From NCBI GenBank assembly GCA_017942035.1, contig JAGAVG010000037.1, positions 1 through 64,000 on the forward strand: a stretch of DNA of 64,000 bases, in the 5' to 3' direction. Positions 4,404-35,697 of this stretch are shown in pieces. The translations under genes were made by a program, and so were the position numbers. Within the stretch, counting starts at the first letter, position 1. Each line of letters starts with the position of its first letter. The notes under the pieces were generated by a model. It was not told the origin of the DNA. It saw only the letters and a program-made list of their open reading frames with translations, and did not search any database. This stretch comes from a bacterium (lineage in GTDB: Bacteria > Cyanobacteriota > Vampirovibrionia > Gastranaerophilales > Gastranaerophilaceae).

Positions 4404-4439
4404 AAAACCAACATTTTTGATTGAATTTTTAACAAAAAA

Positions 4440-4612
4440 CATACACCAAATTTTATATTTTGGTGCGAGTTTTTTATAGCCTTATTATACAATATTTTCG
4501 AGCACATTTCAAGTGGTCATTTTGTTGTTTTTGTGAATTTTTTGGATTTTGAAAGGGTATGTTTTAGTTAGTTTCAGACCCACTCGCACCAAAATATAAA
4601 TTATGGTGCATG
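4440..4612 (+). repeat. prepilin leader cassette, copy A
   Basis: About 170 bp, nearly identical to copies at 34471-34643 (same strand) and 24889-25060 (reverse). The left end (4441-4464) is a palindrome with CACCAAA / TTTGGTG arms followed by GAGTTTTTT. The right end (4586-4609) is a second palindrome, GCACCA…TGGTGC. The two ends are also inverted copies of each other (about 27 of 30 bases by eye). Conservation continues through ATGAATTTAAAG almost to the ribosome site of the prepilin gene. It may be a duplicated regulatory 5' region or a MITE-like element. Confidence 0.8.
4484..4512 (-). promoter_or_regulatory. reverse promoter inside cassette A
   Basis: On the reverse strand TTGAAA (4512-4507), 17-nt spacer, TATAAT (4489-4484). 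It points away from the prepilin gene. The predicted start near 4477 is followed at once by the cassette-end hairpin and a T-rich tract near 4434, so the product would be an RNA of about 45 nt. Confidence 0.65.
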
Positions 4613-4650: not shown

Positions 4651-5385
4651 ATGTTTAAAAATAGTCATTGCGAGCGAAGTGCAAGGAGGCAAAGGACGAA
4701 GGCTTTTACTTTGGCGGAAGTTCTTATTACTCTCGGGATAATTGGCATTGTTGCGGCGATGACCATGCCGGCGGTGATTACTAAGTATCATCAGAAAGTT
4801 ACCATTACTCAACTAAAAAAGGCGTATTCAACGCTTTCTCAGGTTATGATTTCGGCTTTCCCCGATGGCGATTTTTCACAAACAGAGATTCGCGACAGTA
4901 ACACTGTTCAGATGAAAAACTGGTTTTTAACTAACATTAAGCCTTATATGAAAATAACTAAGTATTGCATTGATCGTGCCGGCTGCTGGAATGATGGCAC
5001 TTATATGCTTAGCGGCTCAAAATATGCTTGGGATCAAGGTAACATCGGCATGGGATATAATGTAATTACATTTATTACTTCTGATGGATACTTTGTTAAT
5101 ATTGATGCATTTACTGAGAATAGTTATGGTAGATTTGGATTTAATAATGATGGCCAACATTATCTTATATTTTTTGTAGATGTAAATGGTGCAAAAAGAC
5201 CTAATATAGTCGGAAAAGATGTTTATGTTTTCGCCTTTGCTAAAGATAGGGGATTTATTACTCCAGGACGGGATTTAGAAGATAGTGCCGTTGATAGCAA
5301 TTGCAGCAACAACGGAACGGGTTTATATTGCACTGAAAAAATAATTCGCAGCGGATGGCAGACAAACAAAGTAAATTTCTGGTAA
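4651..5385 (+). CDS. type IV prepilin-like protein, copy A
   Basis: A 244-residue prepilin. A basic leader of 18 residues ends in TKA. The mature part starts FTLAEVLITLGIIGIVAAMT, with Phe at +1, Glu at +5 and an unbroken hydrophobic helix, as required by the prepilin peptidase PilD. After the helix come KAYSTLSQVMISAFPDGDF and a globular domain containing cysteine pairs (CIDRAGC, CSNNGTGLYC). Such proteins are built into pili or pseudopili in the cell envelope. The ATG follows AAGGAGG with a 6-nt gap. The leader (SHCERSARRQR) is the translation of the genome's TCATTGCGAG repeat. Behind cassette A; converges with the reverse-strand gene at 5394. Confidence 0.85.
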   Translation: MFKNSHCERSARRQRTKAFTLAEVLITLGIIGIVAAMTMPAVITKYHQKVTITQLKKAYSTLSQVMISAFPDGDFSQTEIRDSNTVQMKNWFLTNIKPYMKITKYCIDRAGCWNDGTYMLSGSKYAWDQGNIGMGYNVITFITSDGYFVNIDAFTENSYGRFGFNNDGQHYLIFFVDVNGAKRPNIVGKDVYVFAFAKDRGFITPGRDLEDSAVDSNCSNNGTGLYCTEKIIRSGWQTNKVNFW

Positions 5386-23893: not shown

Positions 23894-24847
23894 TTAGAAC
23901 TTAATCGGATAATCGTCTTTTATCTGCCAGCCGTCACGTCTTATTAACTCAGTGCAATAACCACTGGGACTTGTATGATAACCATCATCTCCAACTATTC
24001 TGCCAGTATTAGCATTGCATTTCTCAATCAACTCATCTCGCGTTAAATTTGGATATCTGGTGTTTGCCTCTGTGGATAAAGTCCAAGCATTATTTTTATT
24101 AGACATGGCAAAAGCGAATATTTCTCTGCCAAATAATTTTAAATTTCTTGTCGGTCTTAAAATTACATAGATAGGAGGAATATAAGCGGAATTTGTTCCT
24201 CCTCTTCCTGCCCAAAAGGCAATAACTGCACCATCAGCAAGACTGTAACACGCAGCATTGGTATCGGTATAAGTTGCAGAAGGATTGCTTTGAGGATGTG
24301 AAACCAGTAAGTTATCACATTCATCTTGCGGATATTTAAAATTCACTTTCAAATATGGTGCCAAATATTTGCCAAAAACTCTCTCTGCATTTTCCGGACA
24401 CCAACTATTTTGGACAAGCATATCGGTTACATCAAACCCAATACCGTGTTCGCTCTCAGCCATTCTAATAGCCTGTGAAAGACTTGAGTAAACTTTTTTC
24501 AATGTTGTTTCAGTTACTCTTTTCTGATAAGCACCAACTAAACCAGGAATAGTGAGAGCCGCCACAACCCCGATTATCCCGAGAGTGATGAGAACTTCCG
24601 CCAAAGTAAAACCCTGTTTTACCCTCTCTCTTTGTGAGAGGGTTGAATTTGTTAGTGAGCAGAATGCGAACTTACAAATTCGGGAGAGGGTTTTATAGCA
24701 AGATTCAATGTCACCCTGAACTCGTTTCAGGGTCTCAGTATCATGAGATGCTGAAACACGGAGATCAATCCGACGTTCAGCATGACATGTTTTTTCTGAT
24801 ACTGGCCTGCCTTCTTGCCCTTTTGCATTCTGTTCTTCTATATTCAT
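23894..24847 (-). CDS. type IV prepilin-like protein, copy C
   Basis: 317 residues from the ATG at 24847, chosen because GGAGG lies 8 nt before it; the ATG at 24862 would overlap that site. The leader is unusually long (79 residues) and ends VKQG, followed by mature FTLAEVLITLGIIGVVAALT. After the helix comes KVYSSLSQAIRMAESEHG and a globular domain with cysteines (NSWCPENAERV, DTNAACYSLADG, SGYCTELIRRDGWQ). The leader residues about 18-75 are translated palindromic repeats (CHAERRIDLRVSASHD; FCSLTNSTLSQRERV). The first residues (EEQNAKGQEGRP) match copy B (EEPKSRGQEGKQ). Behind cassette C. Confidence 0.82.
   Translation of the reverse strand: MNIEEQNAKGQEGRPVSEKTCHAERRIDLRVSASHDTETLKRVQGDIESCYKTLSRICKFAFCSLTNSTLSQRERVKQGFTLAEVLITLGIIGVVAALTIPGLVGAYQKRVTETTLKKVYSSLSQAIRMAESEHGIGFDVTDMLVQNSWCPENAERVFGKYLAPYLKVNFKYPQDECDNLLVSHPQSNPSATYTDTNAACYSLADGAVIAFWAGRGGTNSAYIPPIYVILRPTRNLKLFGREIFAFAMSNKNNAWTLSTEANTRYPNLTRDELIEKCNANTGRIVGDDGYHTSPSGYCTELIRRDGWQIKDDYPIKF
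24620..24790 (-). repeat. palindromic repeats inside the prepilin C leader
   Basis: 24620-24690 holds an ACCCTCTCTCTTTGTGAGAG hairpin and a partial inverted partner ending CGGGAGAGGG. 24709-24790 holds the CCTGAACTCGTTTCAGG and GATGCTGAAAC…GTTCAGCATGAC dyads. All are in frame and encode about 55 residues of the leader peptide. Related copies lie at 4319-4362, 19813-19845, 57601-57630 and 62762-62785. Confidence 0.8.
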
Positions 24848-24888
24848 CCTTTTGACCTCCATATTTTCATTAATTATCCTTTAAATTC

Positions 24889-25060
24889 ATGCACCATAAT
24901 TTATATTTTGGTGCAAGTAGGCCTGAAACTCACTAAAACATACCTTTTCAAAAATTAAAAAATCATCAAAAAATGACAAACGACCACTTGAAATGTGCCG
25001 GAAAATATTGTATAATAAGGCTATAAAAAACTCGCACCAAAATATAAAGTTTGGTGTATT
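24889..25060 (-). repeat. prepilin leader cassette, copy C
   Basis: Reverse-strand copy of the cassette at 4440 and 34471. Palindromic ends lie at 24891-24914 (gene-proximal) and 25034-25057 (gene-distal). The interior is nearly identical, including the 16-nt block CACATTTCAAGTGGTC and TATGTTTTAGT. Conservation again runs on through ATGAATTTAAAGGATAA towards the prepilin ribosome site. Confidence 0.8.
24988..25016 (+). promoter_or_regulatory. reverse promoter inside cassette C
   Basis: TTGAAA (24988-24993), 17-nt spacer, TATAAT (25011-25016), pointing away from the prepilin. Predicted start near 25023; hairpin 25034-25057 then seven T (25059-25065). Predicted RNA about 43 nt. It runs towards the 3' end of the GH57 gene. 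Confidence 0.65.
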
Positions 25061-25094
25061 TTTTTGCGTAAAAAATCAGAATATAGCGATTTAT

Positions 25095-34470: not shown

Positions 34471-34643
34471 CATGCACCAAATTTTATATTTTGGTGCGAG
34501 TTTTTTATAGCCTTATTATACAATATTTTCAGACACATTTCAAGTGGTCTTTTGTTGTTTTTTGATGATTTTTTGAATTTTAAGAAGGTATGTTTTAGTG
34601 GATTTCAGGCCCACATGCACCAAAATATAAATTATGGTGCATG
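34471..34643 (+). repeat. prepilin leader cassette, copy B
   Basis: Third copy of the cassette at 4440 and 24889. Palindromic ends at 34474-34497 and 34617-34640; in this copy both outer edges read CATGCACC / GGTGCATG. The first palindrome is followed by GAGTTTTTT, so it is also a possible terminator for the upstream 69-aa gene. Confidence 0.8.
34515..34543 (-). promoter_or_regulatory. reverse promoter inside cassette B
   Basis: Reverse strand TTGAAA (34543-34538), 17-nt spacer, TATAAT (34520-34515). It is followed by the cassette-end hairpin and a T-rich tract in 34460-34470, again giving a predicted short RNA directed towards the 69-aa gene. Confidence 0.65.
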
Positions 34644-34683: not shown

Positions 34684-35697
34684 ATGAGAAATGAGGAACC
34701 GAAGTCAAGAGGACAGGAAGGCAAGCAAGAAACGTCATTGCGAGTGAATAAAATGAGCGTGGCAATCTCGTCAAGAAAAAATAAATGGATTGCCGCGTCG
34801 CATACGCTCCTCGCAATGACGAAGAAATTCACATGTCATCCTGAACTTGTTTCAGGATCTCATGACACAGAGATTCCGAAACAAGTTCGGAATGACATGA
34901 ACCCCTCACCCCAACCCTCTCCCACAAGGGGCGAGGGAGTAAGTAGTAGGGTAGACTTTAGTCTACCGGAAAAACTTGCGTTTACCCTAGCAGAGGTTCT
35001 AATCACCCTCGGGATAATCGGGGTTGTGGCAGCGATGACGTTACCTACCATTGTTAATAACATTCGTCATAAAGAGCTTGAAACATCATTTAAAAAGGCT
35101 TATTCTTCTATAAGTCAGGCTTTAAAATTATATGAAGCGCAAAACGGTACTCCGCTTCTTCCGGGGGATATACCCACACGTAAATTAAAAGGAATGATAA
35201 TGCCGTATTTTAAAACGGTAAAAGATTGCGGATTGGGGAAGGCTAACTCTTCATCTGCCGAAAAAGCCTGTGTTCCAAATCCTGCGGGATGGAGTGAGCA
35301 GGATAAAACAGAAAATTACAAAGCTATTTACAAAAATTACAACGGAACTTCTGAAATTAACCTTTACGCGTTTGATGATGGTCAATTTGTAATAAATGAT
35401 GGGATGTTAATTTTAATTAATAATGATGGCGGAGGCACAAATGGCGGCAGAGATTTTCAAAAATGGATTTCTGTGGATGTTAATGGGTATAACAAACGCC
35501 CAAACAGGCTGGGACAGGATTTATTTATGTTTAGGCTCGGTGAATCAGGTAATCTTTTGCCGGGCGGCTCTGCTGGAGCATATGGAAATGGCACGATAGA
35601 TGCATATTGTTCTAAAACATCAACTGATCCGCAAAATGGAGTAGGTTGTGCAATAAAAGCACTTTCTGAGCCGGACTTTTTCAAAAATCTGCCGTAA
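34684..35697 (+). CDS. type IV prepilin-like protein, copy B
   Basis: 337 residues from the ATG at 34684, chosen because GGAGG lies 8 nt upstream; the ATG at 34669 overlaps that site. The leader has 99 residues and ends EKLA, followed by mature FTLAEVLITLGIIGVVAAMT. Then come KAYSSISQALKLYEAQNG and a globular domain with cysteines (VKDCGLG, EKACVPNP, DAYCSKTS, NGVGCAIKAL). Leader residues 18-46, 50-72, 73-86 and 88-91 correspond to four different palindromic DNA repeats placed end to end. The true mature protein should be about 238 residues. Pili or pseudopili in the envelope are the likely destination. Confidence 0.85.
   Translation: MRNEEPKSRGQEGKQETSLRVNKMSVAISSRKNKWIAASHTLLAMTKKFTCHPELVSGSHDTEIPKQVRNDMNPSPQPSPTRGEGVSSRVDFSLPEKLAFTLAEVLITLGIIGVVAAMTLPTIVNNIRHKELETSFKKAYSSISQALKLYEAQNGTPLLPGDIPTRKLKGMIMPYFKTVKDCGLGKANSSSAEKACVPNPAGWSEQDKTENYKAIYKNYNGTSEINLYAFDDGQFVINDGMLILINNDGGGTNGGRDFQKWISVDVNGYNKRPNRLGQDLFMFRLGESGNLLPGGSAGAYGNGTIDAYCSKTSTDPQNGVGCAIKALSEPDFFKNLP
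34733..34967 (+). repeat. four palindromic repeat families inside the prepilin B leader
   Basis: 34733-34821: CGTCATTGCGAG … CTCGCAATGACG inverted pair. 34832-34899: TGTCATCCTGAACTTGTTTC … GTTCGGAATGACAT. 34902-34940: CCCTCACCCCAACCC … GGGGCGAGGG. 34950-34967: GGTAGACTTTAGTCTACC. All four also occur in intergenic DNA here (16297-16429, 19813-19845, 57574-57656, 62797-62814). Total length is kept in frame with no stop. Confidence 0.85.

Follow-up and report, generated by a model that had tools for sequence, protein, structure and literature searches.

Several described systems of control by DNA inversion resemble the arrangement analyzed here. In Mycoplasma penetrans, the mpl (P35) lipoprotein family is a large paralogous surface-protein family of 38 genes in which each gene has its own invertible promoter (PMC10502178). 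In Escherichia coli, the fimS promoter segment is flanked by inverted repeats and is inverted by FimB and FimE, catalytic-only tyrosine recombinases of about 180-200 aa. In Bacteroides fragilis, many homologous invertible promoters of surface structures are controlled in trans by a global invertase, Mpi, which is a serine recombinase. Groups of invertons that share a repeat sequence are also known from the gut, where the largest group in one 125-strain community had 72 members and one genome had 181 invertons (PMC11892184). DNA inversion also changes type IV pilin expression in Moraxella, whose invertible pilin locus is among those listed in PMC11868660; there, the Piv-mediated inversion joins alternative pilin coding segments at one locus.

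The locus described here differs from each of these systems. It is one of about 110 nearly identical promoter elements scattered around the chromosome of a gut bacterium of the Gastranaerophilales (Melainabacteria), each of which could turn a different pilin-like surface protein on or off. Compared with mpl, the genes are type IV prepilins rather than lipoproteins, the loci number about 110, the host belongs to the Gastranaerophilales, and an outer terminator closes the OFF state; this comparison concerns gene and promoter arrangement. Compared with fimS, the repeats are different, the segment is shorter (165 bp), the recombinase would act in trans on about 110 targets, and the genes are prepilins instead of chaperone-usher fimbriae. 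Compared with the Bacteroides system, there are about 110 homologous copies in one genome, all at one gene family, and a tyrosine recombinase is implied; compared with Moraxella, it is a promoter that would be flipped, at many loci. No report of DNA-inversion phase variation in Gastranaerophilales or Melainabacteria was found in the papers searched.

The starting point was a 64,000-nucleotide stretch (hereafter the window; positions 1 to 64,000 of contig JAGAVG010000037.1, called C69 below, in the 1.99-Mb, 84-contig assembly GCA_017942035.1), in which a preliminary description had noted that three prepilin cassettes each carry TTGAAA, a 17-nt spacer and TATAAT on the strand opposite to the prepilin, followed by a hairpin and T-rich sequence. 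This observation is confirmed. The promoter lies at 24988-25016 (+) in copy B, 4484-4512 (-) in copy A and 34515-34543 (-) in copy C, and in each case it is followed after 18 nt by a hairpin (25035-25056, 4444-4465 and 34475-34496, respectively) and a T-run, which is at 25059-25065 (+) in copy B and on the - strand in copies A (A-run 4434-4439 on the + strand) and C (A-run on the + strand). Seven TTGAAA-N15-19-TATAAT matches occur in the window against 0.61 expected in shuffled sequence, three of the seven being these homologous copies. The predicted 44-nt RNA of copy B (25023-25066) folds at -10.1 kcal/mol (z -3.8). The near-identity of this hairpin to a second hairpin in the prepilin 5' region is also real, but it is an inverted-repeat relation.

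These cassettes are three of about 112 copies in the genome. The core TTTTTATAGCCTTATTATACAATATTTT has 112 matches with up to 3 mismatches and none for the reversed control, while a 19-mer gives 113 matches in this genome and 0-2, the level of the control, in each of 59 other genomes of the family. A blastn search of same-genus genomes found no element, and the core as an exact 21-mer is absent from the collections of genome contigs and viral contigs that were scanned, so that no second strain was found in which orientation could be compared. TATAAT is intact in 109 and TTGAAA in 108 of 110 copies, the rest appearing to be one-base register shifts, despite 40 different 17-nt spacers; loss of the boxes in other copies, which had been named in advance as grounds for rejecting the pattern, was therefore not seen.

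Alignment of 91 copies revealed a common anatomy, in which homology begins at an A-run and continues with a near-palindrome (IR-far), T6, ATAGCC, the promoter, a variable middle, a conserved GGTATGTTTTAGTGAGTTTCAGGCC-like motif, a second near-palindrome (IR-gene), a 5' UTR with GGAGG, and the prepilin. The two near-palindromes (consensus GCACCAAAATATAAAATTTGGTGC) are inverted repeats of each other, each has the dyad layout of a recombination site, and the pair measures 165 bp from end to end in 91 of 96 copies. In copy B the whole element spans 24892-25056, with IR-far at 25035-25056 and IR-gene, which has no T-run on the gene side, at 24892-24913; IR-far and IR-gene lie at 4444-4465 and 4587-4608 in copy A and at 34475-34496 and 34618-34639 in copy C. 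The prepilins that these elements would control are at 23894-24847 (-) for copy B (likely start ATG at 24847 after GGAGG, with the open reading frame listed to 24862), 4651-5385 (+) for copy A, and 34684-35697 (+) for copy C (likely start ATG at 34684 after GGAGG, with the open reading frame listed from 34669). All 81 OFF-oriented copies with enough downstream sequence lead into a prepilin (AFTLAEVLITLGIIGIVAAMT), and the bodies of those prepilins are diverse. The stretch between the start codon and the prepilin cleavage motif in these and other cassette prepilins (4651-5385, 24650-24862, 34684-35000) varies greatly in length and contains translated dispersed repeats (for example NPSPQPSPTRGEG, SSRVDFSLPEK and CHAELVSASHDTEIPKQVRND), so prepilin leader peptides seem to be built from genome-wide repeats.

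Both orientations of the segment occur in the assembly. In 94 of 110 sites the prepilin or its 5' UTR lies on the side away from which the promoter points, whereas in two loci, L032 (contig C1, position 9712) and L113 (contig C77, position 56975, inside an 83-kb contig), the segment is flipped, so that the promoter faces the prepilin, and the breakpoints fall inside the repeats. The far flank is joined to the non-promoter end, an ON-type junction, at locus L076 as well as at L113, and at L166, which lies at a contig end, the same far flank is joined to both ends of the segment, as expected from a mixed population, although this could be an assembly artefact. L032 and locus L035 are closest paralogues (79% over 520 nt) that share the rare TATATAAT core but have opposite orientations; a search of the loci for a contig carrying the second orientation of L032, L113, L076 or L166 found none apart from this paralogue pair. 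The outer halves of the repeats stay with their flanks (far side AAAATTTGGTG in 89 of 100; gene side AAATTATGGTG in 80 of 95), while the inner halves travel with the segment, which places the exchange in the TTTATA centre, as for a tyrosine-recombinase site. L113 is an exception, since its gene-side outer arm is CACCAAAT rather than the usual CACCATAA, so this copy is not a textbook product of inversion. In addition, elements at different loci share identical internal sequence with different flanks (L040/L049/L088, L047/L059/L081/L127 and L077/L079), and many contigs end inside elements, suggesting recent exchange or gene conversion between loci.

The sequences outside the repeats are asymmetric. 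Outside the far repeat a T-run of at least 4 is present in 97 of 100 copies, while outside the gene-side repeat the longest T-run is 3 in 95 of 95. The same promoter therefore should terminate in one orientation and read into the prepilin in the other. In the assembled orientation no σ70-like promoter faces the gene (best score 7-9 of 12, no better than shuffled sequence), against 11 of 12 in the away direction in 98 of 98 copies. Two same-genus genomes, G001 and G002, have 23 and 15 prepilins without the element, many of which have ordinary promoters of the TTGAAA/TATAAT kind facing the gene; a search for inverted repeats upstream of these prepilins found only isolated repeats and no prepilin switch of this kind.

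The explanation held with high confidence is that each cassette is a 165-bp invertible promoter element in which two near-palindromic inverted repeats bracket a segment with one strong σ70-type promoter, and that a tyrosine recombinase acting in trans recombines the repeats and flips the segment. In this view, when the promoter points away from the prepilin (OFF) the outer T-run of IR-far would end transcription after about 42 nt, while the inner T-run would also block read-in from the neighbouring gene; when it points toward the prepilin (ON), transcription would pass through the gene-side repeat, which has no T-run. With about 110 such switches, mostly OFF, a population could present many combinations of prepilins. 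The sequences themselves establish the element, its copy number, the occurrence of both orientations, and the asymmetry of the boxes and T-runs, whereas active and reversible inversion, the identity of the invertase, prepilin expression in the ON state and its dependence on orientation, and the benefit to the cell are inferred. The assembled copies are overwhelmingly in one orientation, and this must be weighed against the proposal. If it is correct, one genome devoting about 110 homologous invertible promoters to a divergent prepilin family would be among the largest single-family switch sets known, and suggests how a non-photosynthetic gut relative of the cyanobacteria varies its surface, for adhesion, phage escape or immune escape. 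It also illustrates how a promoter-terminator unit that looks like a small-RNA gene can be the OFF state of a switch.

Additional support comes from analysis of candidate invertases. The genome encodes five tyrosine recombinases and six serine-recombinase matches, one of which overlaps a tyrosine one; besides the candidate discussed here these include XerC, XerD, two phage-type recombinases and five to six serine recombinases. The likely invertase, L171 (C69:88163-88705), is a 181-aa protein with a catalytic domain only (PF00589, E 1.7e-27), and the catalytic R, K, HxxR, NH and Y columns are conserved in 9 relatives, except that the R of the GLRVSD motif is Q in one of nine. L171 aligns over most of NCBIfam PRK09871 (tyrosine-type DNA invertase) but scores 48 bits against a cut-off of 222, so it may work like the Fim invertases without being a member of that curated subfamily. 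XerC and XerD were considered as the invertase, but their known dif sites do not resemble the repeats, while relatives of the small recombinase carry them. Homologues of L171 occur in 40 of 60 family genomes and at no fewer than 544 loci in the genome-contig collection. The presence of the other recombinases and the lack of an adjacent inverted-repeat pair beside L171 itself count against the proposal, but within 450 nt downstream of the homologous gene a pair scoring at least 15 is present in 30 of 71 relatives, against 2 of 213 shuffles and 1 of 69 control windows; one of the 30 is a tRNA-like 72-nt case. Typical spans are 150-350 bp, most near 190, and several have the same site sequence as the repeats described here: a profile built from 206 repeat arms of this genome scores 32.9 in locus L282 and 27.4 in locus L240, against a shuffle maximum of 5.3. 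In one relative, L245, the order is recombinase, inverted-repeat-flanked segment and prepilin (MKKIKKAFTLAEVLITLGVIGVVASITLP), although here the gene-side repeat does carry a T-run. Other relatives have the repeat pair before surface-protein, glycan and methylase-like genes, names that were read by eye and for which Pfam gave no or only weak support in the two cases that were run. Inverted-repeat pairs with longer spans (305-320 bp) lie near small recombinases or glycan and surface-protein genes at L334 (genome G030), L226, L228 and L278, some beside two recombinase genes in tandem.

Comparative analysis also identified similar arrays in another genus. The repeat pattern gives 225 forward matches in this genome and few in most of 239 genomes, but 14 and 16 in G147 and G163, two genomes of another genus. 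With an adapted pattern these have about 27 and 15 elements, respectively, whose repeats are 145 bp apart from start to start (167 bp in all), with a promoter at a fixed position and a different internal sequence. In all 9 elements whose target could be assigned, the promoter faces away from the prepilin. The same architecture at the same gene family in another genus argues against a chance repeat.

The alternative that survives best, although it is unlikely, is that of the preliminary description, which proposed that the away-facing promoter and terminator make a tiny RNA of about 45 nt that pairs with the prepilin leader, or act as a transcription-interference device, in a segment that does not normally flip. 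This interpretation is partly supported: a promoter running straight into a terminator is really there, and an RNA of about 42-45 nt from the OFF state is plausible, but it is probably a by-product of that state. The invariance of the boxes while the spacer varies, a hairpin with a T-run well above shuffled sequence, and the shared orientation of about 95 copies and of the G147 and G163 arrays are consistent with a regulatory RNA. However, the inverted copies L032 and L113 exist with breakpoints inside the repeats, relatives of a genome-encoded recombinase carry the same repeat pair, and an Rfam scan of the window returned only two tRNAs. In addition, without a σ70-like promoter for the prepilin in the assembled orientation there would be little leader for the short RNA to act on in cis. 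A further reading, also considered improbable, would extend the switch model: the OFF copies would all make nearly the same ~42-nt hairpin RNA, whose sequence is complementary to the repeat hairpin at the 5' end of every ON transcript, so the total OFF-state RNA could set how many prepilins are expressed at once, giving control resembling allelic exclusion and combinatorial pilus identities per cell.

Even less likely is the possibility that the element is a small mobile repeat (MITE-like) with terminal inverted repeats that inserted upstream of prepilins or was copied along with them, so that orientation differences reflect insertion or assembly rather than switching. About 112 near-identical dispersed copies, absent from same-genus genomes, and the terminal inverted repeats fit this view. 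On the other hand, where enough sequence is present the element is always upstream of a prepilin at a fixed register together with the 5' UTR, its asymmetric outer arms stay with their flanks, the protein with adjacent matching repeats in relatives is a catalytic-only tyrosine recombinase rather than a transposase, and the architecture recurs with different internal sequence in G147 and G163; target-site duplications were not seen at the boundaries that were read. The weakest alternative, a fixed transcription insulator with prepilins transcribed in the assembled orientation from an unrecognised activator- or alternative-σ-dependent promoter near the GGTATGTTTTAGTGAGTTTCAGGCC motif, draws on the conservation of that motif and the prevailing orientation, but same-genus prepilins use gene-facing TTGAAA/TATAAT-type promoters, the conserved consensus promoter would then serve no gene, and the inverted copies and the recombinase linkage would remain unexplained.

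Not every set of related hairpins proved to be an array of switches. In genome G141, 61 hairpin sites initially resembled another array, but in the loci that were read (L315-L321) the palindrome CACCAAAAAATATATTTTGGTG, present in about 61 copies, is mostly single and between ordinary genes, so these are probably dispersed terminators related in sequence to the switch repeats. By contrast, several of the switch elements in G163 (L328-L331, L340-L360) lie between two divergent prepilins, so flipping might alternate expression between the two genes.
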